From Owenia fusiformis (Eukaryota; Annelida; Polychaeta; Sabellida; Oweniidae), in NCBI GenBank assembly GCA_903813345.2, contig CAIIXF020000001.1, positions 14,775,915 to 14,839,914 on the forward strand: a DNA stretch of 64,000 bases. Reading direction: 5' to 3'. Below are positions 23,675-61,302 of this stretch, in pieces; within the stretch, counting starts at the first letter, position 1; each line of letters starts with the position of its first letter. The translations under genes were made by a program, and so were the position numbers. The notes beneath the pieces were generated by a model. The model was not told the DNA's origin. It was given only the letters and a program-made list of their open reading frames with translations, and did not search any database.

Positions 23675-23825
23675 ATGGCAGATGAAAGATACGATGAGTA
23701 TGTGAAAAAATTGGAAGAAAATGAGTCGAAGTCCTTGATGAAAAAACATTTTTTGCCTAACAAAGATGCGGTGAAAGATCTGAAAACTCCTTTGGGTGGG
23801 ACAATCTGCGACTGCATAAAATCTG
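23675..23825 (+). CDS. AK: Arginine kinase exon 1 (domain 1, N-terminal)
   Basis: Encodes [34 protein letters not shown] and [17 protein letters not shown]-x-L-G-G-T-I-x-D-C-I-x-S-G is the typical end of the phosphagen kinase N-terminal domain. Its 151 nt equal the length of domain 2's first exon. Phase 1 end at TG|GTAAGT. Confidence 0.92.
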
Positions 23826-41800: not shown

Positions 41801-44800
41801 CAGCCCTGACCTGAATGTGACAGAAAATATGGATGCTATTCTCGAAGATAATATATGGATATCGAGTTCTAAAAAGATGACGTTTAGGGTAGATACTCCA
41901 AGGAAACTCTTCTTATGCCTTAAAAAGGTTTTATGAAGATTACAAAACGCCATATCCCTATTTGAAGCCAGTTTAAGATCATATATGGAAAGTATTGCTG
42001 CTGTTAACATGGCGGCTAAGGAGACACACCGACTATTGTTTTGGTGTAAAACTGACTTTAATTTTGTCCAAACACTAACTTTTGAAATTCCTGTAACTTT
42101 TTCCATTTGTGAGTTGAACCATGATACTCGGCAAATTAATGTAACTTTGGATGAGCTTTAAAATGATATACGACACATACATGGAGTCATTGGTATATGT
42201 CTGCCTATGGGGGCCCATAATTTCGGGACACCCTGTAGCATAAAGTCATCTTGGATTAGCTAGTAAAGATCTCTCCATGAACTCCTTAAGATTATTAAAA
42301 TTCATAAAAGTGCAACTAAACATAACGTAACGTACCAACGTCGAGTGGTTAAAGAGGTCGGAAGAAAACACGCCGTGGTCACATATTAGTCACCATATTA
42401 ATACTTTCATAAAATAAAATAGCATTCAACGAAAAAATCCCTTTTACCTGTTTATCTGTACTAGGGATACAGGAGCAAGTTCGTTGAACATCACTTGTAA
42501 CGCATAAAACCCTTAATGCATTTTGAAATTAAATCATTGCAATGTTTAATATTATAACTCATGTATTTCAATTACAGGGACAACATACACTGTGAGTTGA
42601 CAACGACATTTCTGATTTTTTAAATTATATCAAATGCATGAATGTTTATTAAATGTTCACCTGTCCTAAACTGTGTAGTTTAGAGAAACACATTCTCATA
42701 AAAATATTCGACACTCTTAGACGTAATGGGAGAAAATTATCAAAGGAAATGTGTAAAAAACAACATTTTTCCAACCGAAGAATCGTATGGGTAGACTAAC
42801 AACGAAAAAAATCGAGCACTGCTCGAAGATCTTTTAACGTTATTAGAAAAATAAATGTCTTCGAAATCGAATGCACGCGAAATCAAACATAAAATCCTTT
42901 GTGTTCTCCTAAAATTTATTTTTGAAAACCTGCATCGAACCTACATCATGGTCTTCGCTCAAAATCAGTTAATAGTGACATAGTACATCAAAAGTGTACT
43001 ACGGCATATTTTGTCACCTGTCACGTGACTGTACCTTGTCGATGGTTAGGCGTGTATAAATGAAATAAAGTGTGCAACATGTGAACATTTGTATGTATTT
43101 CAATTTCAGTGTTCACTCTCTGGTGATGATATGATCAAAATCTTGGTTGACTCCAGTTCTAAGTCTCTGCTGAAGACATATCTCACACAGGCTGTGTATG
43201 ACAAAGTGAAAGACCGCAAGACTGCTCTTGGAGGCACTATTGCTGACTGCATGAGATCAGGTATGGAACCATTGCTCTGGCTATTTATTAATGAAATAGA
43301 ATAGTTGTTATTCCTTGAGTATCAAGGTAATTCTTAATGTTAGGACAATCTGAACAATGGCCTCGAGAGGAAAAGAATAAGAATACTTGCGACTGTCATT
43401 TTTCATGGAAATGTGGTCTGGGGATAAGACAGTGGCTTTTACTAGCAGAGAAATAAATAGAGAAATGATGAGTGGGTTTTGTTAAAGAGAAAAGATACTG
43501 CATGTATCCAAAAATTATTTTGGTCAGGAGAAAAATGCTTAGAACCTGCAGGAGCCAGTGGTGTACCCTTTACTTAACTGTAACATGTAAGTAAGTCCAC
43601 TGTACTTAAAGATATGTTTACTTCCAATATGTTTGTCAAACTTCATTTTGCTGTATTCTTCCAGGTGTTGAGAATCTGGACTCTGGCACTGGCATCTATG
43701 CCTGTGACCCTGAGGCTTATGAGACCTTCAAAGAGGCATTTGACCCCATCATTATGGACTATCACAAATGCAAGTCTATTGCCCATCCTGAGGCTGGACA
43801 GTTTGGAAATACGGATGATCTTGGTTTCACTGATCTAGACCCTGACAACAAATATGTTGTTTCCACTCGTGTACGTGTAGGGAGATCATGTGAGGGATAC
43901 GCTTTCCCACCCACTATCAAAACAGAGGTATGTTAATATCAACAATTTCAAACAAAAATTATAAATTGAGGTGAATAATGGCAATAAGGGTGAAAACTTC
44001 ATAAAGATCAAAAATCACCAAGAATAAATCAAAACAAATCACAACAAATCAAAACAGCAGCCAATCTCAGTCAGCGGGGATCATTAAGCACACCACCCTA
44101 AATTGACACAAATTATTGAAATGTTGTGAAAATACAAATGTGTTGATAATGAAAAGCAAATTTTTCATTTGCTTCAACTTGTTAAAATTAGTCCTAGTTT
44201 CTATATGTCTTATCTTGTTATGGAAGTATGGGAAAATATATTCTATCCTTTATACCCCTTAATTGACCTAACTATATTTTCTCCCACTCAAAGGCACGTG
44301 AGGAGATGAAGTGTAAGATGGTGGAGGCATTTGATACATTCGAGGGAGAGCACAAGGGCAAGTACTACCCACTAGAGGGTATGTCACCCGAGGACCAAAA
44401 GAAACTTACAGAGGATCATTTCTTGTTTAATGACTCTGACAGGTAAGTGCAGGAGTAGTGATGGGGCCATATATAGGTAAGGGCAAGAACTGGAATAAGA
44501 TGTGAGGGCCATAGATACTAGGTTAAAGATTGGAATTGATTTTAACCATAGCGGAAGGCCATAGGTTAGGTTAAGGATTGGAATCAACGTCCAGTGTCTG
44601 TATTAACTAGAGAAGGGTCGGTCACGGTTCGGTTCGGTACGATTCTCGGTTCTTGTCTCTCGGTTCGGTCGGTTCTTCAATCATATACTTAATAAGGTGG
44701 GCCTCATAAATTGCAATTGGTGCCACAAATATGGCAAGATAAAAAGGTGTTTCACTTTTATTTTGTATTATTAGGGGATATAATTTTATTTTCAATCTTA

Positions 44801-47800
44801 TAAATGATCAATATGGAATGATGATAGCTGATAATCATTGAATTTTTATGGAATTAAATAACTAGAATTGAACTATTTGGAGATGGCTATCAACAAGTCG
44901 CTTGCCCCGTATTAGATGGGAGGGATTTCTTTTTAAACTGGGTCTGGTTGGGTAAGACCTTTCAATATGTTTCCTCACGGCAGATGTGTTTCCTGAAAAC
45001 TTAAATCAAATCACGTGATACAAGATGGAGGGTGGAAAATAAATTTGCTCGTTCCGGGAAAAGTCCAAATTGTGCATATCTAGGAGATAATTATACACGT
45101 TATATGGATAAATATTATATATAAACCAGTGATCTCCCCAGGATTTTTTCATAGCAGGGGGGGATTTTTTAACAAGTTTCGCCGCTCGCTTCGCTCGCAT
45201 GATTTTTGTGCCAATTTTTGCCGCTCGCTTCGCTCGCTATATAAACACCAATTCTCAATTAGAAAACCTTTTATTTAACAATACATGATAATATGCTTGT
45301 AGTGTCATGACTATTCATTGTTCATTGTGTTTCCTTGAAGTCTTCTGTCCCTACATCTTCTGGGGTGCATGTCAAACCACCTCCCCCATGCTGCCTCAAA
45401 ATCGAACACCTCTTCCCTTGGTCCATTTATGATAATGTTGAGGACCCTGTCCACTGTTTCTACTTTCATTCTATTCTTTAGATAAGTCTTTTTAATTTTA
45501 CCCATTTTTTTTTGAATTTCCCGCATAAAGAACCGGAAGTCGAACTTCTTTATCATGACAACCATCAAAAGCATGATTTGAACATTAATTCGTTCGCAAT
45601 TATAATAACTAAAAATAATACTTCATTGTCAAATTGTAGTTTTAGTCGTTTTTATGTTTGTTTTATTCCAAATTGGCGATTTTGATGATCGGTGATCATA
45701 TCATTCCGCGTTGCAGTATAGGGGTAATCTGCGCCAGGTTCAACTGTTAACTTTTTCTAATTTTCTGAACGCACGCATCAAATGAACGATTTTGATAGGT
45801 TAGAATGTTTTGGGCGCATGCGCATACGTAGTCAAATCAAGTGATCGAACCGAACCTGGGGCAGATTATGTCGATGACGCACGATTAGTAATAGATAATT
45901 TGATTGGATATTTCGTAACTAATCATGAGTTTTGAGCCAATCAGAAGACATTTAAGATTCGGCCTTCGGAATGGCAAATCGGGAAAAACTTTTTGAAAAC
46001 TTTTTGAATTTTATGTGATTTCGTCGAATATCCAGGAGAATAAAATAATGTACGTAAGTTTTGAAGTAGCGGGGCGCTTAGCAGGGCGGGCTAAGCAAGC
46101 AGGGGGGGGGAACAGGGCGGGGAAAACGAGTGAGCAGGGGGGAGCGCCATGCAATTAGATTCTGGGGAGAACCCAGTAAACATACCGTTTTTGGAACAAG
46201 TGAACTTTCAAACAAGCCTGCGCTGTCTAAAGAGCATAAACCATGCCACCAAAGAAAACACATGGATTTTCGAAAGACGAAATGGAGGACATATTGGATC
46301 AATATGTGCAAAAACAAAATGCCAGCATAATAGAGACGGTCAACAATGCAGTTAGAGATTCGTTGAAAGTCGAATTAGGAGAAGTTGCGAAAGCTTTGGA
46401 AAATGTAAGTGCTATTTCCACTGAGAATGCAAATGCAATAAAGACATGTAAAAATGACATTCGAAACATTGAAGCCAGGCTAACGTTGACAAATGAACAA
46501 TTGGCAAACACAGAAAGTCAATTGAAATCGGCTATGATCAAACTTGAAGACAAACAATTGGAAATGGACGTCTATTCGAGGCGAAGTAGTCTCCACTTCA
46601 AAGGAATCCCTGAAGCTGAAGGTGAGAACTGTGAAAATTTGATAAAAACTTTCATAAGGGATAAACTAGGCTTAGATTCGGAAAGCATTAAATTTGAAAG
46701 GGTACATAGGATACCCCTAGGTCCTAAAAGTAAATATAAGTATAACAGAATGATCACAGCAAAATTCAACTGGTATAAAGATCGTGAAAGTGTTTGGAAC
46801 AATAGATATAAACTCAAGGACCATCAAGGCTGTTATATAGAAGAAAGCTTTCCCGCTCAGGTAGAACGAAATCGTAAGATCTTGCTCCCAGTTCTGAAAT
46901 TAGCAAAGGAACAACCTAACATTAAAGCGTCCCTGATCGCTGACACCTTAGTAATTGAGGGCAAAAGATACAAAGTTCAAGACCTACACCTCCTACCTGA
47001 AAATATAAACCCATATCTTACATCTATCCGGAGAGTAGGAGATATAATACTATTCAACAGTGCCACATCCCCACTCGGAAAGGGATATCCATGCTCGTTT
47101 ACAGAAAAGGGCAAAATCTTTAACTCAGTGTCCCAGTATGTTGCATATCAACAAGCCATTGAATTTCAAGATGTAGATTCTGCTCACAGAATCATGAATT
47201 GTCAAAACCCAGCAGTGTGCGACAGAATTGGCAAAAATGTGCAAGGTTTCTCACAAGCCCTATGGGGAATGAAAGAAGATAGTGTCCAGGAAAGAGGGGC
47301 AACCCTCAAGTTCAACCAGAACCCACATCTGAGAGTAGCCCTTGAAGCCACAAATGGTTCAACTATAATTGGTGAATGCAACCCATATGATCTCGTATAT
47401 GGCAATGGGTGCAAAATAACTGATATCAAAGCAGGAAAACCTGAGGAGTGGAGTGGAAAGAATGCTGGGGGACAAATAATCCAGCGCGTAAGAGACAATA
47501 TGAAGTAAGTTGTACCAGACGAAACATTTATTCTTTGTATTTATCAGCAAAAACTACTTGTTAGACTGAGTAGAATTATCTCTTGGATAGCTTAGAAACA
47601 GTCCCTTTTTCAATCAAACAATTGAATATTTCTTGTTTATTATGAAATACATATATTCAAAGGGACAAATGGAGCTACAGTGGCCTGGTAATGTTAAAAA
47701 AGAGAGCAATATCATTAGCTAATCAGAAACCTAGCAGATAGTGATAAAGGACTCTTGCTGAAGACTATTGTTTACAAAATACATATTCCTTTTAGTTTGT

Positions 47801-50800
47801 AATTTGCTTGTAATACATCCAGTGTACTGGAGAAATAGTTGAAAAATATTTTCTAGAATGTAACAATCTCAACATTAGATCATTCATATAGCTCATTTCA
47901 ATAGCTTTGCAGTTAAAACTTGCACTGCCTGTTTACATGCACATTACTTATGAAGGGATATTGCTGCCCTGAGATGGTCAACCGATCGGCCAATGAAATT
48001 AGCGCTAGCTTTCTTTAAGGTAGTTGCACAATAAGCAGAAAATACATCAAATAGACTACTGGCAATATGAGATTTCAGAAAATATGACATAAAATCTTTC
48101 ATATTGTGGAATTTATGGTTCACAACTGGATCTGCACTCATAGTTAGAAGAAAGAGTCATGCTCTCTCATTTTAAATTAAGATTTACCATGGATAATTAA
48201 GCATAAACAATTATTTTATAACATTACCGAATGTTCAACTACCTTAAGTTCTGTTTCTTCTAAAAAATGTTTGGAAATGTGTTCAGAATATGATTTTGAA
48301 AATTATGTTTCTGAAATACATGAATTATTCTGGTAATTTATGTTACCTAACAAGGTGATTTTTATTTTAAATACTAGTCTTGTAGTAAAATGCACAAAGG
48401 ATGCAAATAAAGGACTTTTTCTTTTCTTGTATCAGTGAAAATAGGGAAAGGGGTATACTATAAGGGGATGTGTTGGAGGAATGAAATTTCAATGAACACT
48501 GGAAAGCAGTTACATTTGCATTGTGTGTGCAGCGTTTACTACATAGACAAGGGGTAAGATAAAATTTTGTAGTGTGAACTGTCAAGGCCTTTGTGACCCA
48601 ACAAAAAGAGTAGATGTCTTCAATTACTTGAAACAAAAACAAATGGATATTATATGCTTGCAAGACATCCACTCTTCTAAGGAAACTGAAACAGCTTTTG
48701 AAAAGGACTGGGGAAACAAGGCTTTTATTAGTTCCTATAAAACCAACAGTAGAGGCGTAGGCATCTTTATAAGGGAAAATCTAGACTATAAAATTTACAG
48801 TACAGATATTGATGTAAAGGGAAATTTTGTTATACTAGACATTGAGATAGAGGGTAGGAGATTTTCACTAGTTTCATTATATGGACCCAATACTGATTCA
48901 CCTTCCTTCTATTCAGAACTGAAAAGCAAACTAGAAACTATTGAAAATGCCTCTATGCTCTTGATGGGAGATTGGAATCTAGTTTTAGATACTGATCTCG
49001 ATACCTTGAACTATAAACATATCAACAATCCAAATTCAAGAAAAAAGGTTCTAGAGCTATGTGAACAATTAGAACTATATGATATTTGGAGGGAATTAAA
49101 TCCTGAGGAGAAAAAATTCACTTGGGTAAGGAAAAAACCACGTCAAATGGCAAGACTTGATTTCATTCTTGGAACAGAGGACTTTATTAATTTAACACGG
49201 AGTTGTCGTATTTCACCGAGCTATAGATCTGATCATTGTTTAACATTGCTAACCATCGAGAACAATCTTCCAGAAAGGGGTAAAGGTTTCTGGAAATTCA
49301 ATTCCTCACTACTGAAAGACCCTGTTTATATCTCTTTAGTTAAAGAAACCATCCAAAACATTAAAACTCAATACGAAATCAAGGCAGATATTTCAAAATC
49401 AGAAACTACTGCAGATCTTTCAATAAATGATCAACTCTTTTTTGAAATGCTTAAATTGGAGATTAGAGGCCAGACTATAAAATATTCTTCTCAGAAGAAA
49501 AAATCGCGAGAGAAAATTCAGCGTGATCTAGAATACAAACTTTTAGTTAAAGAAAAAGAAATAGATAATCTCATTAATAAAGAGAAATTTCAAAATGGAA
49601 TATTTGAGAAAGATATTGAAGAAAAATATGATGAGTTAGAAAAAATTAAAAGTGAAATGAAAGAATATAGAGAACACTATGTGAAAGGTCTTATGACCAG
49701 GGCAAAATTAGAATGGTACGAATTTGGTGAAAGGGCGACTAAGTATTTCAGTGGTTTAGAAAAAAGAAATTATGTAAATAAATTAATTTGTCAGGTGGAA
49801 GTTGATGGGGAACTGATAACAGATCCAAAACTTATTCTTTTGGAACAGAAGAAATTTTACGAAAACCTTTACAAAAGTAAAATACAAAATAATGAGGAAA
49901 ATAATGACTTCTTTTTAAAAAATAACAATGCCATTAAAACCTTAAGTGAAGAACAGAAACAATCTTGTGAAGGCCTTTTAACCGAAAAAGAATTGAAATT
50001 TGAATTGAAAAGTGCAAAAAATGGAAAATCCCCGGGATCGGATGGTTTTAACGTTGACTTTTACAAATTCTTTTATCCTGATATAGGAAAATACTTACTC
50101 AAATCGTTAAATGCAGCCTATACACTTGGCGAATTATCAGTGACACAGAAACAAGGGATCATAACATGTCTACCCAAGGTGAACAAAATCAGAAAATACT
50201 TTAAAAACTGGAGGCCAATCTCATTATTAAATGCGGATTATAAACTCCTCTCATCAGCCTTAGCAACAAGAATGAAGTCAGTTCTGCCGCATATTATTTC
50301 TATAGATCAAAAAGCATATCTAACGGGTCGAGAGATGTCAGAAAACACGCGTCTAGTCTATGATGTTATAGATCATCTGAATCGAAAAGGACACCGAGGG
50401 CTATTACTATTAGCAGATTTTGAGAAAGCCTTTGATAGTATCGAATGGGTATACTTAGAAAAATGTCTGAAAAAATTCAATTTTGGGGACGGATTCCTTA
50501 AATGGTTCAAGATTCTATATAATGAGTCTGAAAGTTGCGTTATAAATAATGGCTTCTTTTCAAGTTTTTTCAAATTAAAGCGTGGCTGTCGGCAGGGAGA
50601 TGCCCTCTCCTGCTATGCATTCATCCTAGCTCTGGAACCTTTATGTTTAAAACTTAAAAACGACAAAGACGTTGAGGGTATTAAAGTTTATAATGAAGAA
50701 GTTCAAATGGGAATGTATGCAGATGACACTTTTGTATTTTTAGATGGTACAGCAAAATCACTAAGACGCTGCCTATGTATTTTTGATATGTTTTATGAAA

Positions 50801-52497
50801 CGTCAGGATTAAAGTTAAATATAGAGAAAACGTCAGCTATCTGGTTAGGTAGTAAACAAGGTTCTAAAGAAATATTATGCCAAGAGATTCCACTTAAGTG
50901 GGAAACAAATTTCAAACTTCTTGGAATACACCTATCTTCTGATTTAAAAGATGTAGAATCTCTCAACTTTGAAAACAAAATTACTGAAATGCAAAATGTT
51001 ATAAGTAGGTATAAAAGAAGAAATCTATCCTTAATGGGAAAAATTACTGTACTCAAATCCTTTGTGTTGCCGAAGGTAGTACATTTGTTCCTTGTCTTGC
51101 CAAAATTGTCAAACCCCTGCCAAACTAGAATCAAACAATTATTTACTTCTTTCATTTGGAACTCAACAGTTGCAAAAGTAAGTTTTTCACAAATTGTACA
51201 AGATTTTGACGACGGAGGCTTAAAAATGATTGATCCCAAGATCTTTGAACATTCACTCAAATTGACATGGTTGCAAAAACTTCAGAAATCTGGCACATGG
51301 CAAGACATTGCACTTAATATTTTAAATGTGAATTCAAAACGTGAACTCTTTGCATATGATTCCAAATCCTTAAAGAAAATAGAAGAAAATATTTCAAATA
51401 AATTTTGGAAAGATCTTGTTTACACATTTAGAATATACACTGAACAAAAAGAGAAAGAGGCAAAGAATGATTCAAAATTGAGTGCTGAACTTGCTATGTG
51501 CAACACTTGGGCAAAGCTTACAAAGAACCAAAATGTCCAAAAAATATTGAAGAATGTAAGAGTCAATGGAGAGACAATTGTACTACAAGATATGTTTCAT
51601 CAGTCAAATAGAATTCTGAATCAAGAGGAATTCAATGAAAAGTTCAATACAAACATTAATTTTCTTGATTATTTGAGTCTCAGAAATACAATTCCTAATC
51701 AGTGGTTGAGCGATATTAAGAAAAACGGCGATAGTTTAAATAACTTTGAAAGACAAAAACAACACATAAAAAAGTTCATGGGCCAAAGTAAGATAAGTAA
51801 AATTATATATTGGGAACTTATAAAAAGTGAAGAGACAAACATAAAGTACATCACTGGTTGGAATAAAGATCTGAATCTGTTACTTAACAAAGAAGATTGG
51901 AAAATGATCAATAGAATCAATAAAGTCAGCAATTTTGAACCAAAATTAGCTTCTTTCAATTTTAAAATTCTTCATAGATTTTTGGCCACCAACACATACT
52001 TGAAAATGTGTGGATTAGCAGAATCAGATCTGTGTACTTTTTGTAAAGTAGAACCAGAGTCAATTTGTCATCTCCTCTATGAGTGTAAAGTGATAATGGA
52101 ACTCATAGTAGTCATTAAAAACTGGTTACCAGAGGAATTGACAGGACTTTGTACAAAACAGAATATTTTAATAGGACCAGTATGTATAAATGATAGAACA
52201 ATTATCCTGACAAATATGTGGAGTATATTTAAAAGATATGTGTACCTATGCAAATACTCAATGTTAAGACCTACCTTTAAAGGATTTAAAGCAAATGTAA
52301 TATCTTATTGTAATATTGATAAGCAAATAGGCAGAGAAAAAAGGTGGGAAATTATGGGTACTAGATTAGATTAGACTAGTGTGGTTAGATGCCTTAAAAA
52401 AGAATATGATGGAAAATTGTGTGATTTCTATGATATTATGAATATTGTATATGTTAATGTAACTGCTTTCAAATGTTTTCTATGAATAAAAAAGGAA

Positions 52498-52528
<31 letters not shown>

Positions 52529-55500
52529 ATATGGATAGCACAGATGTCCTTCAGTTGGGAATAACAGTGCAGTGGGCTAGGGGGGTGTTTACCCAAATTC
52601 TCAACCTGACTTAGGGCCTGGGGTAGGACACATGAAAAAGTGTATATATCAGTCATAAAAATGTTACTATGAGCGGTAATAGAAGGCAGTTACAAGATAG
52701 GGAATGAATGGAAGTCTAATAAAGATCGTAGTCTTAATTTTTCAAATTGAAAAAAATTCACAAAAAGTTTCAATCACAAAAATTGGAAACCTGCAGCGTA
52801 TTTCAATGTCGTGGTGCACAACCTACATAGGGTAGACGTATTCTCATCGTAGAAACCGAGTACTTCCAAGCATCAAACTTCGGCATTGCGGGGAAAGGCT
52901 CTATTATGGTTTTACTAGCTCTTTGCCTAAGACTTCGAAAACTGTCCGCCATTTTTAAAACACAAGAGTTCCCGCGCAAAATTAATTCACGCTCGCAAAT
53001 AGAATTATGTTCCCTCGAGACGTGGAAGCACAATGAAATATCCAAGGAGACGATTTTGTTACCGTATGGATCGTTTAAAGTTGTTCAATTGTCGTTTAAA
53101 TGGTACTTTCATTCGCTATTTAGATGAAATAGAGCTATAATTATTTGCGCAAAACATTGGTATTCATGTTACACTGTACGAAAATAGAGTATTTCCCCGG
53201 GAATGATGCAACCGTTCTGGACTCGGTTCTTGGTGATCAGACGGTCCCAGTAGAACCGTGAGGTCAAAAACCGTGGTTAATCGAACAGAACCGTAACCGA
53301 CCCTTCTCTAGTATTAACCCTAGACGTGTGCTGAGTGAGTTTACTCGCTGTGACGTCACATTCCATGTAGACGATCAGCGAATTTACTCCTCACTTGATT
53401 ATGTTGAAATTGTTTGCAAAAAGTCAGAAGTCATTACCTTAATTAATTTGCTGCTATTATGTCACCACCAAAAGTGGTGACATATTGTTATGGTCTCCGT
53501 TTTTTGCGACGGCGGTTGGCGTCCGGCGGTTGGCGTCCGGTGGTTGGCGTCCGGCGGTTGGCGTCCGGCGTCTGTAACAATTTCTTACAACTTCCTATAA
53601 CTTAACAAATACTGTTTAGACTGACTTCAATTTTTTTCTAAATCATCTACATGTTCTCAGAAGTTCAAATCTGACTTTAGATTTGACATTTGACCTTCAA
53701 TGACCTTCTCAAGGTCAAAAAGGTCTTTTTTCAACTTGCTTCACATTGACTAAATTTTTTTTCAAAATCATCTACATGTTCTCAGAAATTCAAATCTGAC
53801 TTTAGATTTGACTTTAGATTTGACATTTGAGCTTCAAATCTGACTTTATATTTGACATTTCACCTTCAATGAAAAGGTCTGTTTTCAACTTGCTTCAAAT
53901 TGACTAAATTTTTTTTTCAAAATCATCTAAGTGTTCTCAGGAATTCAAATCTGACTTTGGATTTGACTTAAGATTTGACATTTGACCCCCAATGACCTTC
54001 TCAAAGTCAAAAAAGGTCAAAAAGGTCTTTTTTCAACTTGCTTCAAATTGACTAAATTTTTTTTTCAAAATCATCTACATGTTCTCAGAAATTCAAATCT
54101 GACTTGAGATTTGACATTTGACCTTCAATGACCTTCTCAATGTCAAAAAAGGTCAAAAAGGTATTTTTTTATCTTGCTTCAAATTGACTAAATTTTTTTT
54201 CAAAATCATCTACATGTTCTCAGAAATTCAAATATGACTTTAGATTTGACATTTGACCTTCAATGACCTTCTCAAGGTCAAAAAAGGTCAAAAAGGTCTT
54301 TTTTCAACTTGCTTCAAATTGACTAATTTTTTTTTTCAAAATCATCTACATGTTCTCAGAAATTCAAATCTGACTTAAGATTTGACATTTGACCTTTAAT
54401 GACCTTCTCAAGGTCAAAAAAGGTCAAAAAGGTCTTTATTCAACTTGCTTCAAATTGACTAATTTTTTTTTTCAAAATCATCTACATGTTCTCAGAAGTT
54501 CAAATCTGACTTTAGATTTGACATTTGACCTTCAATGACCTTTTCAAGGTCAAAAAGGTCTTTTTTCAACTTGCTTCAAATTTACTTAATTTTTTTTCAA
54601 AATCATCTACATGTTCTCAGAAGTTCAAATCTGACTTTACATTTGACCTTCAATGACCTTCTCAATGTCAAAAAAAGTCAAAGAGGTATTTTTTCAACTT
54701 GCTTCAAATTGAAGAATTTTTTTTTCAAAATCATCTACATGTTCTAAGAAGTTCAAATCAAACCTTCTTAAGGTCAAAAGGTATTTTCCAACTTGCTTTA
54801 AATTGACCAAATTGTTTTAGGTGGTGACATTTTGTCATGTTAATGCCTTGTTCTTCAATTGTGATGGTTTTGATAGTTGATGGTGTTGTTAACATTCACA
54901 CAACATAATATTTTAACAAAAGTTAAATAGACACAATAATTAATGAAACAAAAGTATTTTTGAACTTTATATTTCAAAAATATTGACCGGAAGTGAACAT
55001 TTTTTTTTATTTTTTGGATTAAATTGAAGAATACTGTAGATTGGGTTAATTTGGCACTACTTAATTTGGTGATTTTGCCATTTTTGGCATATTGGCGGCT
55101 ATTTAATTTGGCGGATATGCAAAAAAAATTTAATTAACTTATGCGTTGTTTGCGAATTTTATGTTAATTTTTTCTTTTGAGGACCACTGGCAATATTCAC
55201 CACGTTTGTACATTTTTGTGAGATCATCCTTTACATTTTGCACCTCGATTGATGCTGCTACTATACTGCACTTTTCCTTTCTAGTTTTTCCCTGAGTATT
55301 AATAAGTGACTGACCAGTTCTGAGCCAATTTATGAGAGACATTTTTTCATATTTTTGGAAAAAACTAAACCGGAAGTGACCTAAATACACTCGACGAAAT
55401 ACCCTAGATAATTCCCGGGGATTCATTCTAAATTTTGGCGAAGATTTATATTGGCGAATTTTTCAATTTCGCCAAATTCGCCAAATTAAAGCGGGTGCCA

Positions 55501-58500
55501 AATTAACCCAATCTACAGTACTCATCAAACATGAGGAAATTGATCACAATGTATGATCAGGTGATGATATAGTTTAGTTTAGTTTATTTATTATTATTTA
55601 TTTATAGTGGCCAATCTTATAATTCAATATAATATAAAAAAAATTAATGACAATTTTACCCAGGCTATGCTCTGTTTGTTAGGTTCCTGAAATCAGCTGG
55701 AGGCTACAATGACTGGCCCAAGTCTCGTGGAATCTACCACAATGACAACAAGACATTCTTGGTGTGGTGTAATGAGGAAGACCACATCAGGATTATCTCC
55801 ATGCAGATGGGAGGCAACTTGGGAGAGGTTTACAGTAGACTGGTAGCTGTAAGTAACCATCTCATAATAGGAACTGTATGCTCAGTGTCTTCAATATAGT
55901 CAATATTCTTACATTCTTTCATTATCTAGATTTGATATCCAAATATCACTTTGAAGCTAGGCTTAATATCATCATTTTTACAAGAGTAATATTTATGTTA
56001 GATAAATATTCACCATTGAGTGGGCGATTATGTAGCATCATTGTCTGTCTGTCTGTCTTTCCATCTGTCAGGGGTGTAACTTATATAATAGTGTACTAAT
56101 AGTGTATAATAGTGTGTAGTTTTCTTCAAATAGATGAATAATGATAAAATAAGAATAGAAGTTACAAATTGTAGATGATATGACAGATGCTATTGATAAG
56201 AGCCTAACATATTTGCTTTCTTTTATTTTATTTATCATATTGCATTGTATTTATTAATTCATAAAAATGACATACATATATCCTAGTAGTAATAAGTTGG
56301 TATTGTAAATTGCATTTTTAATCCCAGGGAATCAAACACATGGAGAGCAAGACCAAGTTTGCTACCAACCCCAGACTGGGCTATCTAACATTCTGTCCCA
56401 CCAACCTTGGAACTACATTGAGGGCCAGTGTCCATGTTAAGATCCCACTCTTTTCACAGCACAAGGACTTCAATAAGATGTGTGCCAGTTGGAATCTACA
56501 ACCAAGAGGTACAATGCATTTATAAACATCTGTAGTTGTTTTGTTCTATAACTTAGCCTGCTGGGAAACTCAACATTGTTAAAGTTCTGTCGATTCTATA
56601 AATACAGAAGACATTTTTTAAGAAAAAAGACACAGATGAATATTGTAAGCTTGGAAACTTGAAGGTTTTGAAACAAACTAAATGCTCTAGGTTGCAATAT
56701 AAGAGAGATGTTTAACTACTAGTATCTATTACTTTATAGATTTCATTCCACTTTTAGTGATAATCTGATTAGATGTTGTTGCACTAATGTTTGTTTTAGG
56801 TATCCATGGTGAACACACAGAGTCAGTAGGTGGAGTTTATGACATCTCCAACAAGAGACGTCTTGGTCTCACAGAGTACCAGGCTGTCAAAGAAATGGCT
56901 GATGGCGTCATGAAAGTCATTGAAATGGAGAAAAAATTGGAAAGTGGTGAAAAGGTGGGCGAGAAAAAATCAAGTTCCTGTGTCCTGATTTAAATCCCTG
57001 TAGGGCTAGTATTAGTGGGTCTGAGAGACAGATTCATCAATTATAGACAACAAGTCAATGAATTTCAATGGAGATTTGGGATTTGAGACTGAAAGGGGAG
57101 CCCAGGAAATTGAAATGATCATCACTGGGAAATATGCTGATAAGGTTTAAAGACTCAGACTAACTATGCTTGGGTCCCAACTGTGCTGCATGTAATTCAC
57201 ATAACCCACCTGTAGTCTACACCCATCATTGAGCCTGTATTCAAGTTATGAAATGCTTAAATCAATGCAATCTTTTGTACTGAAGAATTACATTTAATTG
57301 TCTATATTTTCATGGTTATTTGTCTTATTTATTCCATATTACTCAAATGTCTTTGTTATATGCAGCACTGGTTCTGAACCCTTTGCAAAGTGGATGTGAT
57401 TTTCCCCTAGCTTAGAAAGGCGTTGCTCTTCAAGTGTTGCATGAAACAATATGTTGCTGTGTGGTATTTGAAGATTTAAATCGTAGTGTAAATTATGCTT
57501 GCAATATATTCTATTATAATTGTATATAAGATATTTAAAAGATATTTACTCTGTATATATGGAGAGCAGCGCCTTTTTGACCAAACCTTACTAACCTGAT
57601 TTACCAGTAATTAATGCAATTTAATATCATGCCATGAAAATGGAAAAATCAAGGAATTATTTTATGTCAGTATAAACACAAAAATTGATTTTTCTTCTGC
57701 ATGGTGGCAAAACTATAAGAGGTTTCATTTTGGAAATTATGTTTCATAGTTAGAAGTGATTTATGGTAAGGTTTGAATATACTATATCATGTATATGGAA
57801 ATCCATGGTAATTGGCACTTGCATCCTCGTGATCTCACCTGATAGCTTTACTATTACTTATTTAAAACCATTTTCTGTTGCTTGAACCTTTACTTATATT
57901 TTCCAACACTTTGCCGAAAACTTCACTCTTGCCTCCAGCTTTTATAAAGCTGTTAATTTGCCAAATCTCATTATTTCTGCTCCTGAAATATTGCCAAATT
58001 TCATCATATTAGAAAATATTTATTAATGGGTGAAAATGATCTGAGGTTTTGACAAGACAATGTCTTCTCCAAGTTATTCAACTGTCAATGTACTTTTATG
58101 TAGAGGGACCACCACGATTTAGGCTCATTGTAAGCTTCATGATGCATGGATTGTGTGAATTTAAGTTTGTAAATAGATATACTCGTATAGTTAATATAGC
58201 AAGTACTTGTACAATGGCATACCAAGTAGTTTCTTGTTTTGGGGCACACGTTTTTGCAAAATATATGTTGATATGCTTTGTTTTTGTACAGATTATATAT
58301 TCTCAGATACTCTTTTGTAAATTTAATGCATGTTTTGAAAACTATTTTTTATCGCATAACGGACATTTTGTACTTACAACTTCTGAAAATCTTCTATATT
58401 TTCAATAATTTACTGTTTAAATCTTATTTTTTGTATTATGTTTCCCAAACTGCCCTGATTTGACTCTACCATGAGGCATACCTCTTACACTTCAAATGAT

Positions 58501-58736
58501 CTCAACTGATTGAAGCTAAACCTAATGTTGTCAAATGTTACGTCCTTATGTTTCCATTATGTTGCCAAGGTAGATACCCTGGTTACCATAATGTTGCCAT
58601 GGTTACCATGATGTTGAGAGGTTTACTCTTATCCTTGCAGGTCCAAAGTGGACTGTCCACCCCCATGCTCCTCCTGCTAGCAGGCATTCCCACTGTAATA
58701 GTAATAGGCGTACTCATTAAGAAGTTCTGGTCATGA
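23675..58736 (+). CDS. AK: Two-domain arginine-kinase-like phosphagen kinase (14 exons, alternative C-termini)
   Basis: Phosphagen kinases move phosphate between ATP and a guanidino compound. The joined exons give 788 residues with the spliced tail or 769 with read-through. Domain 1 (about 1-352) and domain 2 (about 403-757) each have six exons of nearly matching size, joined by a 50-residue linker. Both keep LDSGxGIY, STRxRVGRS, the NEEDH Glu (219, 622), the CPTN Cys (267, 668), the LRASVHVK Arg and HGEHTES Glu (309, 710), so both should be catalytic. They resemble arginine kinase ([12 protein letters not shown]) rather than creatine kinase (CPSN). The position of Arg193 in chelicerate arginine kinase is Lys196 in domain 1 and Asn599 in domain 2, and Val65 is Cys or Thr, so the exact substrate is less certain. 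ATG at 23675 is the first in-frame Met after a stop at 23588. C-termini are discussed at 56800 and 58641. Confidence 0.9.
23972..24377. mobile_element. Probable TA-flanked inverted-repeat element
   Basis: TACAGTCTACACCAGGAGGAG-like and, inverted, TACAGTGTAGACTCAGGGGG-like ends bound about 400 bp in intron 1. The arms are short and mismatched, so the call is tentative. Confidence 0.4.
24535..24625. repeat. Dispersed repeat fragment shared with 39640-39740
   Basis: AATCGGGGAAATGCTGACTGG, minus its last base, followed by TTATCGCAGGGGGTAAAAAG and CCCTGTGATCGGAGGAT, occurs here and inverted at 39640-39740. It is half of the imperfect palindrome described there. Confidence 0.65.
24646..25127. mobile_element. 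TA-flanked MITE, CTGTAAAACGGGTA ends
   Basis: CTGTAAAACGGGTA at 24646 pairs with TACCCGTTTTACAG ending at 25127, flanked by TA. Internally CGCTAAAAT-type blocks repeat in both orientations. It is 482 bp, about the same size as the element at 55034-55518. Confidence 0.75.
25834..26568. mobile_element. hAT-type non-autonomous element (735 bp)
   Basis: The ends TAGGGCTGTGCCGGAACCGG and, inverted, TAGGGCCGTGCC pair, and the 8-bp target duplication TGCCAGAC is exact (25826-25833, 26569-26576). Both subterminal regions are dense in GGTTCGGA or GGAACCGG words, as in hAT elements. No transposase was recognised. Confidence 0.85.
28165..28350. mobile_element. TA-flanked MITE, CAYTAAAACCTGT ends
   Basis: CACTAAAACCTGT at 28165 pairs with ACAGGTTTTAATG ending at 28350, flanked by TA. 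Its 186 bp contain AATGAACAC/GTGTTCA-type words. Related ends bound the elements near 30398 and 39928. Confidence 0.65.
30398..30632. mobile_element. MITE of the CAGTAAAACCTG group
   Basis: CAGTAAAACCTGATATC near 30400 and, inverted, AACCTGTATATTATATC near 30632 bound a 230-bp stretch containing AAAAGTGTTCAGA words in direct repeat. Ends are diverged, so limits are approximate. Confidence 0.5.
31240..31660 (+). promoter_or_regulatory. Possible intronic regulatory patch
   Basis: A CpG-richer stretch in otherwise AT-rich intron has a full cAMP-response palindrome TGACGTCA (31347-31354) and GGTCACGTGACC (31382-31393), and a good donor AAG|GTACGTAAAT near 31512. It could be an alternative promoter and untranslated first exon for arginine kinase, or a transposon remnant. 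Weak evidence. Confidence 0.25.
32398..32584. mobile_element. Short inverted-repeat element, GTGATCTCCCC ends
   Basis: GTGATCTCCCCGGCATTT pairs with AAATCCTGGGGAGATCAC over 187 bp. The middle repeats GCACCCACCTGA in direct orientation. The same GTGATCTCCCCAGGATTTTT word lies near the 5' end of the LINE at 45126. Confidence 0.6.
33680..33963. mobile_element. Foldback MITE, sister of 19822-21183
   Basis: CACTGTTCCACAACTAGTTA pairs with TAACTAGTTGTAGAACAGTG. Its interior matches the right half of the element at 19822-21183, including TTACGTCAATGTAACAAAA. It lacks the nested insertion, so it serves as the empty-site reference. 284 bp, non-coding. Confidence 0.75.
34489..34748 (+). CDS. AK: Arginine kinase exon 2 (domain 1)
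   Basis: Encodes [37 protein letters not shown] and [19 protein letters not shown]. LDSGxGIY is the guanidino-specificity loop. STRIRVGRS carries two Arg that bind ATP phosphates in the family. Phase 0 end at GAG|GTAATA. Confidence 0.93.
34909..35057 (+). CDS. AK: Arginine kinase exon 3 (domain 1)
   Basis: Encodes [35 protein letters not shown] and [13 protein letters not shown], the family segment K-Y-Y-x-L-x-x-M...D-D-H-F-L-F. The 149 nt equal those of exon 10. Ends in phase 2. Confidence 0.92.
35058..36976. other. Arginine kinase intron 3
   Basis: 1.9 kb without coding sequence. It contains the MITE at 36466-36740 and nothing else recognised. Confidence 0.5.
36466..36740. mobile_element. 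TA-flanked MITE, CCGRATTTTCTCGCATATA ends
   Basis: CCGGATTTTCTCGCATATAA at 36466 pairs with TATATGCGAGAAAATTCGG ending at 36740, flanked by TA. It is 275 bp. GGGCGTATAA and GCCCATGGGC words repeat inside. Confidence 0.75.
36977..37142 (+). CDS. AK: Arginine kinase exon 4 (domain 1)
   Basis: Encodes [40 protein letters not shown] and [20 protein letters not shown] holds the catalytic Glu219. Lys196 stands where chelicerate arginine kinases have Arg193. Phase 0 end. Confidence 0.94.
37337..37523 (+). CDS. AK: Arginine kinase exon 5 (domain 1, active-site Cys)
   Basis: Encodes [20 protein letters not shown] then [17 protein letters not shown] and LQPRG. CPTN carries the reactive Cys267 of arginine-kinase-type enzymes, and TLRAS an ATP-binding Arg. 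Phase 1 end. Confidence 0.94.
38176..38318 (+). CDS. AK: Arginine kinase exon 6 (domain 1, C-terminal)
   Basis: Encodes [37 protein letters not shown] and [18 protein letters not shown] carries Glu309, and the D-I-S-N-K...T-E-x-x-A-V pattern ends the catalytic domain. Phase 0 end, so the linker exon can be used or skipped in frame. Confidence 0.93.
38559..38708 (+). CDS. AK: Arginine kinase exon 7: Ala/Glu/Pro linker
   Basis: Exactly 150 nt, phase 0 at both ends, encodes 50 residues such as [20 protein letters not shown] and [18 protein letters not shown]. It is low-complexity, acidic and probably disordered, a tether between the kinase domains. No other role is visible. A cassette-type exon, so a shorter linker form is possible. 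Confidence 0.8.
39643..39870. mobile_element. Imperfect palindromic element, CATCCTCC ends
   Basis: The left arm CATCCTCCGATCACAGGGC to CCCCGATTAA and the right arm, inverted, CATCCTCCTTACCAGGTG to GCCCGATTAA follow the same order with mismatches. Half of it recurs at 24535-24625. Non-coding. Confidence 0.6.
39928..40190. mobile_element. MITE with CAGTAAAACCTGT ends
   Basis: CAGTAAAACCTGT, followed closely by TGTCTAAAGTGAACGCT, pairs with AGCGTTCACTTTAGACAGG and TTTTACTT near 40190. About 260 bp, same end group as 28165-28350. Confidence 0.65.
40908..43054. mobile_element. DNA transposon-like element, 80-bp inverted repeats
   Basis: ACACGCCTAACCATCGACAA at 40908 through a GTACACTTTTGATGTACTATG block recurs inverted up to 43054, with TATA on both sides. 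Secondary inverted blocks (GTTGTCAACTCGAATGTATG) lie inside. It is 2.1 kb, has no recognised transposase, and ends 55 bp before the first exon of domain 2. A shorter relative is at 6040-6805. Confidence 0.7.
41604..42235. mobile_element. Nested element with about 100-bp inverted repeats
   Basis: TAGGCAGACATATACCAAT to AATATGATGGTTCAA (about 41638-41732) recurs inverted at about 42110-42207, with diverged outer ends and TA on each side. It lies inside the element at 40908-43054. A 106-codon minus-strand open stretch between the arms has no recognised domain. Confidence 0.65.
43110..43260 (+). CDS. AK: Arginine kinase exon 8 (domain 2, N-terminal)
   Basis: Encodes [34 protein letters not shown] and [16 protein letters not shown]. 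Its 151 nt and phase 1 end match exon 1, but it opens in phase 0 with Cys instead of Met because it follows the linker. Confidence 0.92.
43665..43927 (+). CDS. AK: Arginine kinase exon 9 (domain 2)
   Basis: Encodes [36 protein letters not shown] and [20 protein letters not shown]. The specificity loop is LDSGTGIY, with Thr at the position of Val65 of chelicerate arginine kinase. Counterpart of exon 2 (263 vs 260 nt). Confidence 0.93.
44294..44442 (+). CDS. AK: Arginine kinase exon 10 (domain 2)
   Basis: Encodes [37 protein letters not shown] and [12 protein letters not shown]. Counterpart of exon 3 with the same 149 nt and the same phase 2 end. Confidence 0.93.
46243..47508 (+). CDS. LINE ORF1 protein with C-terminal NADAR-like domain (421 aa)
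   Basis: Residues about 25-105 form a coiled coil (heptad Leu/Val with many Asn and Lys). Residues about 108-185 match the L1 ORF1p RRM-like domain ([20 protein letters not shown], then [14 protein letters not shown] and [14 protein letters not shown]), and about 186-255 the C-terminal RNA-binding domain ([16 protein letters not shown]). Residues 267-420 are extra. [66 protein letters not shown] and YDLVYGNG follow the NADAR/YbiA order (S-N-F...S-E-H-Y...Q-A-x-K-F...W...K-F-x-x-x-x-x-L-R-x-x-L-L). NADAR proteins hydrolyse the N-glycosidic bond of ADP-ribose derivatives. The SEH Glu is Gln here, so activity is uncertain. The ATG has an ACCATGC context. Confidence 0.82.
   Translation: MPPKKTHGFSKDEMEDILDQYVQKQNASIIETVNNAVRDSLKVELGEVAKALENVSAISTENANAIKTCKNDIRNIEARLTLTNEQLANTESQLKSAMIKLEDKQLEMDVYSRRSSLHFKGIPEAEGENCENLIKTFIRDKLGLDSESIKFERVHRIPLGPKSKYKYNRMITAKFNWYKDRESVWNNRYKLKDHQGCYIEESFPAQVERNRKILLPVLKLAKEQPNIKASLIADTLVIEGKRYKVQDLHLLPENINPYLTSIRRVGDIILFNSATSPLGKGYPCSFTEKGKIFNSVSQYVAYQQAIEFQDVDSAHRIMNCQNPAVCDRIGKNVQGFSQALWGMKEDSVQERGATLKFNQNPHLRVALEATNGSTIIGECNPYDLVYGNGCKITDIKAGKPEEWSGKNAGGQIIQRVRDNMK
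47509..48546. other. LINE inter-ORF spacer
   Basis: About 1.04 kb between the ORF1 stop and the opening of ORF2, with no long plus-strand reading frame. That is long for an L1-type element, where the ORFs are usually close or overlapping. Nothing else was recognised in it. Confidence 0.5.
48547..52374 (+). CDS. LINE ORF2: AP endonuclease and reverse transcriptase
   Basis: The frame opens after a TAG at 48544; no ATG lies between it and the endonuclease core ([12 protein letters not shown]), so initiation is non-AUG or by reinitiation. Counting from GTG at 48574 (1,266 codons): the endonuclease has VNCQGL, LQDIH (28-33, usually LQETH), GDWN (132-135), ARLDFIL and SDH (219-221). The reverse transcriptase has [27 protein letters not shown] (614-622), GCRQGDALS and YADD (715-718). 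A CCHC knuckle lies at 1154-1171 (CTFC, H, C). The enzyme nicks target DNA and copies the LINE RNA there (target-primed reverse transcription). Layout and motifs fit the L1/Tx1 group. All catalytic motifs are present except the Glu to Asp change, so it looks intact. Confidence 0.9.
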   Translation, partial: TRGKIKFCSVNCQGLCDPTKRVDVFNYLKQKQMDIICLQDIHSSKETETAFEKDWGNKAFISSYKTNSRGVGIFIRENLDYKIYSTDIDVKGNFVILDIEIEGRRFSLVSLYGPNTDSPSFYSELKSKLETIENASMLLMGDWNLVLDTDLDTLNYKHINNPNSRKKVLELCEQLELYDIWRELNPEEKKFTWVRKKPRQMARLDFILGTEDFINLTRSCRISPSYRSDHCLTLLTIENNLPERGKGFWKFNSSLLKDPVYISLVKETIQNIKTQYEIKADISKSETTADLSINDQLFFEMLKLEIRGQTIKYSSQKKKSREKIQRDLEYKLLVKEKEIDNLINKEKFQNGIFEKDIEEKYDELEKIKSEMKEYREHYVKGLMTRAKLEWYEFGERATKYFSGLEKRNYVNKLICQVEVDGELITDPKLILLEQKKFYENLYKSKIQNNEENNDFFLKNNNAIKTLSEEQKQSCEGLLTEKELKFELKSAKNGKSPGSDGFNVDFYKFFYPDIGKYLLKSLNAAYTLGELSVTQKQGIITCLPKVNKIRKYFKNWRPISLLNADYKLLSSALATRMKSVLPHIISIDQKAYLTGREMSENTRLVYDVIDHLNRKGHRGLLLLADFEKAFDSIEWVYLEKCLKKFNFGDGFLKWFKILYNESESCVINNGFFSSFFKLKRGCRQGDALSCYAFILALEPLCLKLKNDKDVEGIKVYNEEVQMGMYADDTFVFLDGTAKSLRRCLCIFDMFYETSGLKLNIEKTSAIWLGSKQGSKEILCQEIPLKWETNFKLLGIHLSSDLKDVESLNFENKITEMQNVISRYKRRNLSLMGKITVLKSFVLPKVVHLFLVLPKLSNPCQTRIKQLFTSFIWNSTVAKVSFSQIVQDFDDGGLKMIDPKIFEHSLKLTWLQKLQKSGTWQDIALNILNVNSKRELFAYDSKSLKKIEENISNKFWKDLVYTFRIYTEQKEKEAKNDSKLSAELAMCNTWAKLTKNQNVQKILKNVRVNGETIVLQDMFHQSNRILNQEEFNEKFNTNINFLDYLSLRNTIPNQWLSDIKKNGDSLNNFERQKQHIKKFMGQSKISKIIYWELIKSEETNIKYITGWNKDLNLLLNKEDWKMINRINKVSNFEPKLASFNFKILHRFLATNTYLKMCGLAESDLCTFCKVEPESICHLLYECKVIMELIVVIKNWLPEELTGLCTKQNILIGPVCINDRTIILTNMWSIFKRYVYLCKYSMLRPTFKGFKANVISYCNIDKQIGREKRWEIMGTRLD
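53319..53455. other. Intron sequence between hAT element and minisatellite element
   Basis: Short unique intron stretch, with nothing recognised. Confidence 0.4.
53456..54852. repeat. Minisatellite-bearing repeat element, copy B
   Basis: Same ends as copy A (TATGTCACCACC; GGTGGTGACAT... GCCTTGTT). A GGCGGTTGGCGTCC tandem of about 15 bp repeats four to five times at 53509-53575. Then about nine units of roughly 130 bp follow (AACTTGCTTCAAATTGAC core), against about five in copy A, so copy number varies within the family. Non-coding; in arginine kinase intron 10. Confidence 0.75.
55034..55518. mobile_element. TA-flanked MITE, CTGTAGATTGGGTTAATTTG ends
   Basis: CTGTAGATTGGGTTAATTTG pairs with AAATTAACCCAATCTACAG, flanked by TA, 485 bp. 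Repeated TTGGCG/CGCCAA words and an ACCGGAAGTGAC block recall the interior of 24646-25127. It ends about 160 bp before exon 11. Confidence 0.75.
55683..55848 (+). CDS. AK: Arginine kinase exon 11 (domain 2)
   Basis: Encodes [40 protein letters not shown] and [20 protein letters not shown] carries Glu622. Asn599 replaces the Arg193 position. The acceptor TTTGTTAG follows an 11-kb intron. Same 166 nt as exon 4. Confidence 0.93.
56328..56508 (+). CDS. AK: Arginine kinase exon 12 (domain 2, active-site Cys)
   Basis: Encodes [38 protein letters not shown] and [15 protein letters not shown]. Cys668 is the reactive residue. Counterpart of exon 5 (181 vs 187 nt). Phase 1 end. Confidence 0.93.
56800..56993 (+). 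CDS. AK: Arginine kinase exon 13, read-through form ending in a CaaX box
   Basis: Encodes [37 protein letters not shown] and [15 protein letters not shown], which complete domain 2. If the donor inside (AAAAG|GTGGGC at 56954) is not used, translation goes on as [12 protein letters not shown] and stops at TAA. The last four residues, CVLI, are a CaaX box: such proteins are prenylated on the Cys (a terminal Ile or Leu favours geranylgeranyl) and anchored on the cytosolic face of membranes. Two Lys precede it. The alternative, spliced use is at 58641. Confidence 0.8.
56994..58640. other. 3'UTR of the CaaX form or intron of the tail-anchored form
   Basis: No further exon recognised. A clear AATAAA was not found here, so the CaaX transcript may simply keep this intron and share the distal poly(A) site. 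GTTGCCATGGTTACC with related ATGTTGCC and GGTTACC words lies at 58557-58615, just before the next exon. Confidence 0.45.
58641..58736 (+). CDS. AK: Arginine kinase exon 14: tail-anchor exon
   Basis: After TCCTTGCAG, 96 nt in phase 0 continue the frame from exon 13 cut at 56954 and encode [17 protein letters not shown] then [14 protein letters not shown] and TGA. About 19 hydrophobic residues followed by KKFWS form a single C-terminal membrane helix with a short basic tail, the layout of tail-anchored proteins. A moderately hydrophobic helix with a basic tail is common on the mitochondrial outer membrane, which would suit an enzyme handling ATP, but ER is possible. Isoform length 788 residues. 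Confidence 0.75.
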   Translation, partial: VQSGLSTPMLLLLAGIPTVIVIGVLIKKFWS

Positions 58737-60725
58737 TCAAGACACTATAGACTTAGTCACATGACCATCACATGACCACACACAGTGACACCTATGTTTG
58801 AGAATGAGAATCACGTGATAAGCAGTTCAACACAATGACAATTTATGATCTGAATTAGACGACAGCTCAAAACCTGTAGTCACAGTCATATGTTAGTTTG
58901 ATTGATTTTTTGAGTTTGGACACTGAAGTAGGAAATAGGTTTTTGCTTTGAGGATTTTGGGATTTGATTACACTTTTCGGCAAATGCAATTTGGAAAATC
59001 TAATCTAAATTCACCTGCATGTGTAATCTTGCATGACTTATTCATCTACATTTTCTCTCATCCTTTGTTGTTCTTCCAATTGCCTTTAACATGATGAGTG
59101 ATTCATGAGCCATTGCTTTTCACCCTGATTGTTTAAGCCACTTTGTGTTCTGTATTGTTTGCATTTCTCTTTATTTTGCTTATTTCCCCATAAGGGACTC
59201 CTGACTGGTTTTGGTTTGTAATGTTAAACATATCTTTGTAACAAATGATCAAATGTTAAATGTTTTTCTTATTCTTAGTTAATTCTTGAATTTAATAATA
59301 GTTTCATTTTGATTCTTTGGCCTTGTAACTTAAATTCATGATGTGTTTGCAACTTTCAGATCTAATGCTGTAAGGTCACACCCATACCTAAAGGAGTCTA
59401 AATGTCCCACAAAACTTGTTTACTAACATAGTTAAAGCACTAGGCCTATTTATTTATTACTTATTCAAAGTAGAAAATGAAAACATTTTAAGGAAAGATG
59501 TTTGAACTTGTGACTTTTTCAATCTTACATTTCTGTATTCTCAGTAAATTCTACTTATCATATTGGGACTTGAAAGTATGAGAGCAATTGTAGATGAAGT
59601 ATTAGGAAAGTTGTGTAATGATATTGCCAAAAATGTAGATTTTGCCTGGTCAGGAATTAGGCCATAAAATTTTGAATTATTTATTAGTGATATTAAAATA
59701 TTGTGCATGTGTATGTGTTTGAAAGAGCTCGGGGCAGTGCTATTGGGATCTGTTTATGGTGAGCTTGTGCAGTCTTGAGTGTGTAGCGATTAGTGTGTCT
59801 TGTATAAGATATATGCAGCATGCATTGTTTATATGCAGGGGATATATGTACTACAGCGTGCATGATTTATGTAGCATGCAGGGGATCAACTTGATAGGTA
59901 TTTCCTGAGAGACGATAGGACATTATCTAAGGTTTTTTTAACACACCATAAATGGATAATACAGAACTTGTCTATAAAATATGTTTGCTCCAGATGTAAG
60001 GCTGTAAGGTAACTTCCTAATACAGTAAACGTTTAGCCTTACATCTCGACATGTATCCAATATACCACTACACACCCTCCTGTCTGACCATTTGTTCATA
60101 AATTGTGTGTCATACTTAAAAATGTACCAAATTGTTTGCACTGAACAATTTTTGTACTCCTCTATTATCATATCTGAATTTGATTAAACTTAAACACATA
60201 TCACTGTATTATTGGTTTGTGGTGATATAAAATCATGTATTGAATTGCGTCTTGCATTATTTCCAAAATGTTTAATTTAGTGCCCTAACATCAGTATTAG
60301 TAGTGTACTCACTGGCGAGGTAAGCTTTGTAATAGTGAAATTTTATATTTATCTCCATACAGTTAGTCTAAATTATAGGTTTACAATAATTGCCAAACAC
60401 ATGGGAAACCTAGTTACACCATTCTTATTTATTGTTTATTTAAAACTATAAAAACTCCAAAATATTGTGATAGTAAAATTAGTGAACATGCCAAAGGTAT
60501 GTCTTTAATTCCATAATATACAGAATGTAAAAACACTAAAGATGTCAATAAATGTATACTCCAGACAATTTGTTGCCTTTGAATTCCTCACCAAAGAGTT
60601 ATTTTTATTATTTCCAATGCTATGTACATGTTTGAATTATTATATACTGTAGTAAGTGGCTTTCACAAGGGCCTTCATGTTTTGCTTTAACACTGTTTTG
60701 TGTGGGAAATAAACAATAGAAATCA
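58737..60725 (+). other. Probable 3'UTR of arginine kinase
   Basis: No open gene. AATAAA occurs at 60545-60550 (in CAATAAATG) and at 60708-60713 (in GGAAATAAACAA), either of which could end the transcript. That gives a 3'UTR of about 1.8-2 kb. A small hairpin (ATGTAAGGCT with its inverse) lies at 59994-60048. Confidence 0.45.
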
Positions 60726-60777
60726 AAAATGCATGGGTTTTGTTATAGTGTGTACGAATATACAATCTCTTATAGAT

Positions 60778-61302
60778 CACACCGGAATAGCCTAACTACG
60801 GTAAATTCAGGCACGGTTGTCACAAATGGCGAACATTACCGTCGCTTCAATGGTTTAATGACTTGGTCCTCATTTCATGGGATTTTATCGTCGCTAATTC
60901 TGTGCATGCATTAAGCTCTTGTGACAATATATCATATGAAATCCCATTTTCGATCAAATTGGGTCGTGAATCGCCACAACATAGCGTTTTCGATATTGTC
61001 AATGACAACGGAATCTGAATTTGAGTAATTTAGAAAGATAACGGCATATGGTAATTACAGTGTCCGTTGTCCCGTTTTTCATTTCGATTGGTTAAATTAA
61101 GACTTTATTTCGATGGTAGAACATTATTAACTGTACAATGAGTATAAAGACACTTTGATTGATTGTTGTTCCAAATTAAAGGAATTTAGTCTAGGTGCTC
61201 TATTAAACATAAAGTTCATGAAAATATAATTGAAGCGACGGTTATGTCCGCCATTTGTGACAACGGTATCCAACTTTACCGTTGTCCGGCTATTCCGGGG
61301 TG
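60778..61302. mobile_element. Inverted-repeat element, CACMCCGGAATAGCC ends
   Basis: CACACCGGAATAGCC at 60778 and CACCCCGGAATAGCC (inverted, ending 61302) open arms of about 75 bp that include GTTGTCACAAATGGCG and ACCGTCGCTTCAAT. AGAT flanks both sides. 525 bp, no coding sequence. Confidence 0.75.

Follow-up and report, generated by a model that had tools for sequence, protein, structure and literature searches.

Phosphagen kinases sit next to ATP users and producers, and their placement in animals is usually credited to N-terminal signals, separate genes or binding partners. Among other enzymes, ALDH3A2 is tail-anchored and ALDH3B1 is prenylated, the two kinds of tail being carried by different genes. 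The ALDH3 enzymes, which are not relatives of the kinase described here, resemble what is proposed for it in that a soluble catalytic core is placed at membranes by different kinds of C-terminus.

For metazoan phosphagen kinases, a first prenylation signal was reported from a feather star (Chouno et al., 2015, by its title as cited in PMC6429109). These enzymes, from Tropiometra, share with the present proposal a prenylation signal on the arginine kinase of an animal; the title makes no mention of a second, transmembrane ending, unlike the gene described below. The arginine kinases of Trypanosoma brucei are located in the flagellum, glycosome or cytosol, TbAK2 by means of a C-terminal PTS1 tripeptide, and TbAK1 carries a 26-residue C-terminal extension, according to the accessible part of PMC3679164; the flagellar enzyme is treated beside acylated proteins in that of PMC4517888. 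Terminal signals thus direct these trypanosome enzymes to different places, which resembles the present proposal, whereas three different genes serve in T. brucei (PMC4517888) and a single one would serve here. Neither a CaaX box nor a transmembrane tail is described in the accessible parts of the two articles (PMC3679164, PMC4517888).

Two fused complete kinase units, as found here, are known from arginine kinases of the clams Calyptogena, Solen and Corbicula, to judge by titles, and of the sea anemone Anthopleura (PDB 4rf6). In the two-domain enzymes of Solen and Corbicula, D62 is replaced by G (title cited in PMC6429109). In its accessible text, a 2025 structural review of arginine kinases contains neither "membrane" nor "mollus" (PMC12467219), and a transmembrane or dual-tailed arginine kinase was found in none of the literature titles and abstract openings searched, subscription journals lying mostly outside that coverage.

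Here we describe an arginine kinase gene from the annelid Owenia fusiformis, contained in a stretch of 64,000 nucleotides that was analysed as a whole and is called the window below. This one gene may equip the core of a two-domain arginine kinase with either of two C-termini, a CaaX box or a tail anchor, a reading to which we give not quite an even chance.

Gene structure and kinase core

The gene occupies positions 23675-56954 of the plus strand and consists of 12 exons, positioned through homology and splice sites, that provide 707 codons before the tail in one open frame. Domain 1 begins at the ATG of exon 1 (23675-23825), continues through exons 2 (34489-34748), 3 (34909-35057), 4 (36977-37142) and 5 (37337-37523), and ends in exon 6 (38176-38318), which carries the phase-0 donor of the bridge intron. 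Domain 2 begins in exon 7 (43110-43260), runs through exons 8 (43665-43927), 9 (44294-44442), 10 (55683-55848) and 11 (56328-56508), the last of these with the CPTN loop, and is completed by the last catalytic exon, exon 12 (56800-56954), which ends ...EKKLESGEK. The domains share 61% identity over 347 aligned positions. Within each of them the intron phases 1, 0, 2, 0, 1 are repeated, and the bridge intron between them is also in phase 0.

Pfam places two stretches each of PF02807 and PF00217 in the kinase, so that a single frame encodes two complete ATP:guanido phosphotransferase units. For the C-terminal half, the best PDB matches were the two-domain taurocyamine kinase 4wo8 (top), the two-domain arginine kinase 4rf6 and single-domain arginine kinases; the N-terminal query likewise retrieved 4rf6, 4wo8 and arginine kinases, and both halves of 4rf6 and 4wo8 were matched. 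The best single-domain matches are arginine kinases, but the C-terminal half matches a taurocyamine kinase best, and arginine specificity and activity are putative. NLDSG is read in both domains (exons 2 and 8), and the residue numbered D62 in the clam enzymes presumably lies within it; its equivalent seems to be kept in both domains, unlike in Solen and Corbicula.

The frame here continues past the catalytic end by either of two routes. Of 49 PDB matches, 23, including both two-domain chains, stop 0-3 residues past the match to the catalytic end, although chain ends are a rough guide only because constructs can be trimmed. The chains of 4rf6 and 4wo8 stop 2 and 1 residues past it, whereas the kinase here runs on. 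The remaining 26 extend by at least five residues and comprise creatine, lombricine and glycocyamine kinases, the arginine kinases 3ju5 and 7ews, and bacterial protein-arginine kinases. The many short chain ends would suit a kinase that is plainly soluble and uses neither tail, its mRNA ending in another exon. However, a frame open beyond the catalytic end has to terminate at some point, and by the controls given below each of the two ends available to it is unusual; we consider a plainly soluble product very improbable.

Several other elements were observed in the window. Upstream of the kinase, at 10324-10686 and 14574-14933 on the plus strand, there are a carbonic anhydrase exon (PF00194, E 1.1e-8) and a VWA-like stretch below the Pfam cut-off. 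Intron 9 of the kinase gene holds a plus-strand frame (46240-47505) with a C-terminal NADAR domain (PF08719, E 2.4e-26, residues 284-421 of 422), directly followed by an endonuclease, reverse transcriptase and zf-RVT frame (48547-52371, plus strand) with a poly(A) run near 52500. The segment 46240-52371 looks like a LINE whose ORF1 acquired a NADAR domain, and the two frames may form a single element. A tandem array of units of about 136 nt lies at 53590-54820, and translated fragments of like wording occur near 2470-3090. At 55024-55528, about 155 nt upstream of exon 10, two inverted arms of 34 nt, 94% complementary and 437 nt apart, possibly form a short inverted-repeat element. No tRNA was found in the window.

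A CaaX-type ending by read-through

Reading on from exon 12 adds 12 codons and a stop (56955-56993, plus strand, stop at 56991-56993) and yields a product of 719 amino acids ending KKSSSCVLI. This end fits the CaaX rule, with Cys at -4, an aliphatic a2 and a permitted X, at the very C-terminus. Isoleucine is not the best residue with which a CaaX box can end, and at the X position of CVLI we expect it to favour GGTase-I. Together with the basic stretch before it, CVLI makes a plausible geranylgeranylation signal, from which we infer that this form would be prenylated.

The motif was compared with the 3512 frame ends found on both strands of the window for frames of at least 12 sense codons. 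Cys stands at -4 in 123 of them; 32 are CaaX ends by a lenient rule and 14 by a strict one, the target being included in each count, and strict CaaX with at least two K/R in the preceding eight residues occurs at three, the target among them. These counts bear on a reading in which the tail-anchored form alone is real and SSSCVLI is a chance stretch, encoded by the intron before its first stop. Some short tail results from any intron read-through, as such a reading would have it, but strict CaaX at just 14 of the 3512 ends, and at three of them in a basic context, argues against chance, as does the prenylation signal reported, by title, for another animal arginine kinase.

When all 12 exons were read into their introns, a CaaX end appeared at exon 12 only (1/12), which makes a weak control because six of the 12 read-throughs are only one or two residues long. 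A CaaX end was also sought at the end of domain 1, where the read-through of exon 6 ends MPIT.

A putative tail-anchor exon

Joining 56954 to 58641 is a phase-0 splice and leads into a putative tail-anchor exon on the plus strand, the coding part of which (58641-58736) comprises 31 residues (58641-58733) and a stop (58734-58736). The product, of 738 amino acids, would end in a hydrophobic helix followed by KKFWS. The 18-residue core of the helix has a mean Kyte-Doolittle hydropathy of 2.79 and is followed by five residues, and the next best segment in the kinase reaches 0.72. Tail-anchored proteins carry just one hydrophobic helix, no more than about 30 residues from the C-terminus; the arrangement here is the same, and insertion of this helix is putative.

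An alternative reading holds that the CaaX form alone is real, that the DNA after 56993 is 3′ UTR, and that the acceptor and the open frame of the tail exon behind it both arose by chance. The unspliced reading requires no further exon, and the one prenylation signal reported (by title) in an animal relative is also on its side. The frequency of such exons speaks against it. Across both strands, 84 AG sites score at least as high as the target acceptor, a count from which the gene's own acceptors were not removed; 35 of them open a frame of 18-80 amino acids, of which five pass a lenient tail-anchor rule and a single one, the target exon, passes the strict rule. With less strict settings, a scan of plus-strand positions 1-61000 found two tail-like frames among 81; they score 2.06 and 2.79, and the higher score is that of the target.

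Composition also separates the exon from its flanks. Its GC content is 49%, compared with 33% in the flanks, and exceeds that of every 96-nt noncoding window within 56994-61000 (maximum 47%); elsewhere in the 64 kb, 2.8% of 96-nt windows attain it. The synonymous codon choice is matched in 5.6% of stop-free noncoding windows. This difference from the flanks in GC and in synonymous choice is a further argument against a chance frame in a 3′ UTR. The codon score lies above the noncoding mean and is equalled by 8.6% of stop-free noncoding windows, and it may reflect composition alone because it does not single out the reading frame: equal scores are obtained in the third forward frame and in one reverse frame. 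This point favours the chance frame. Codon use is no proof that the exon is coding.

The intron after domain 1 was searched for a second tail exon, with the tail as a tblastn query on the window and with a scan for Y-rich acceptors, and none was found there. In the tblastn search the only match below E 0.1 was the tail itself, and the next best (0.19) lies outside that intron. KKFWS was also considered as an ER retrieval motif, a reading that was dropped because the lysines sit at -4 and -5 and because a tail anchor has its C-terminus on the side of the membrane away from the cytosol.

Splice sites and transcript 3′ ends

The putative alternative intron (56955-58640, plus strand, 1686 nt) begins at AAG/GTGGGC and ends at TTATCCTTGCAG/GT. 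By a matrix built from the other 11 donors of the gene, its donor is the lowest of the 12, at -2.15 bits against 1.3 to 13.0, and 41% of the GTs in the window score at least as high, as would be expected if the CaaX form alone were made. A generic animal matrix, with frequencies set by hand, conflicts with this measure: it gives the donor 7.82 bits, above three of the other 11 and level with one (7.83), so that it ranks among the best 1.7% of 6846 GTs and first in 56800-57000. That the best donor at exon 12 is also in phase 0 counts against an unused site. A middling donor could suit a regulated choice, and it also suits a weak or unused one.

The tail acceptor is strong, falling in the top 1.2% of 6859 AG sites and ranking second of the 169 AGs in 56961-60600. 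The acceptor that outscores it, at 59279, opens a frame of 20 residues, which is a further point for an mRNA that ends in another exon altogether and encodes a soluble kinase.

Neither AATAAA nor ATTAAA was found in the 1647-1648 nt that separate the CaaX stop from the tail exon, nor anywhere else in the putative intron, whereas a Markov model predicts 3.3 for the stretch between stop and exon; no signal at all was obtained with a probability of 0.0355 in 2000 Markov runs, and 7% of windows of equal length also have none. The first AATAAA downstream of both stops is at 60547-60552 (plus strand) and is a candidate poly(A) signal for both forms, and ATTAAA occurs at 59692 and 60183. The CaaX form would consequently need a retained intron or a variant signal, of which AATATA at 57503 is an example. 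As far as these motifs go, the tail-anchored form would have an ordinary 3′ end, and a CaaX form made through a retained intron would use the same one.

The lack of a canonical signal ahead of the tail exon is the main point in favour of the tail-anchored form being the only real one, and the strength of the acceptor and a GC content unlike that of the flanks point the same way; weighed with the rarity of CaaX ends, this reading seems to us improbable. The same 1648 nt free of canonical signals after the CaaX stop oppose the view that only the CaaX form is made and that a 3′ UTR follows it, which we hold to be unlikely.

One kinase with two candidate endings

By the frame-end and tail-anchor controls, neither tail looks like chance, and we return to the reading in which the two endings would be alternative products of one gene. 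If the donor at 56955 is used, exon 12 would be joined to the exon at 58641, adding the hydrophobic helix with its short basic tail; the helix would then enter a membrane after translation, as tail anchors do, leaving both kinase domains on the cytosolic side, and its target would be the outer mitochondrial membrane or the ER. If the donor is skipped, exon 12 would be extended by 12 codons, and the basic stretch with CVLI would lead to prenylation. The purpose of such an arrangement would be to position phosphoarginine-driven ATP regeneration at two membranes. Both transcripts, the prenylation, the insertion of the helix and this two-membrane purpose are what we infer from the locus. That splicing picks a prenylated or a tail-anchored end for the product of one gene, and so provides ATP regeneration at two different membranes, is possible and is put forward tentatively, with slightly more doubt than the reading with two endings itself.

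The earlier note, made from the letters of this DNA, had described the gene, its coordinates, the phase-0 junction and both tails; the coordinates check exactly, and the controls argue against chance. Its further claim, that alternative splicing sends one kinase to two membranes, is unproven, and the two-tailed arginine kinase as a whole is credible but unproven from sequence. The note had also regarded a choice between a lipid and a membrane tail as new for phosphagen kinases. This holds in part: that a metazoan arginine kinase bears a signal for prenylation had been reported in 2015 (Chouno et al., title), and a C-terminal targeting signal is known on TbAK2 (PMC3679164, accessible part), while no precedent for a transmembrane tail or for a choice of tails was found in titles and abstract openings. 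A lipid tail on an arginine kinase is thus already reported, and the splice choice between a CaaX box and a transmembrane tail may be new.

Relatives were sought with exact patterns of the exon-12 peptide, which capture close relatives only. The search of viral_contigs returned 24 pattern matches and no relatives, and that of genome_contigs 147 pattern matches and seven relatives, all of them in records with bacterial titles. At the four of these seven bacterial loci whose C-terminal end was recovered by motif, neither a CaaX nor a hydrophobic tail was present.

The layout of the gene may also bear on its origin. Domain 1 ends at a phase-0 donor (after WEKELM) in a place nearly equivalent to that of the exon 12 donor, although the two are four codons apart and the intron after domain 1 yielded no tail exon. 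Had the ancestral single kinase possessed such a donor with a tail exon beyond it, duplication in tandem could have allowed one copy to be spliced, in frame, to the copy that followed. In this way the phase-0 donor that closes the kinase unit may have enabled the gene fusion, an idea that we put forward because domain 1 joins domain 2 through a donor at nearly the same place.

If true, a transmembrane tail on an arginine kinase, together with a splice-directed choice between a lipid and a helix, would be a direct way to post one enzyme at two membranes, and the idea of a spatial phosphagen shuttle would become testable through the swap of a single exon.
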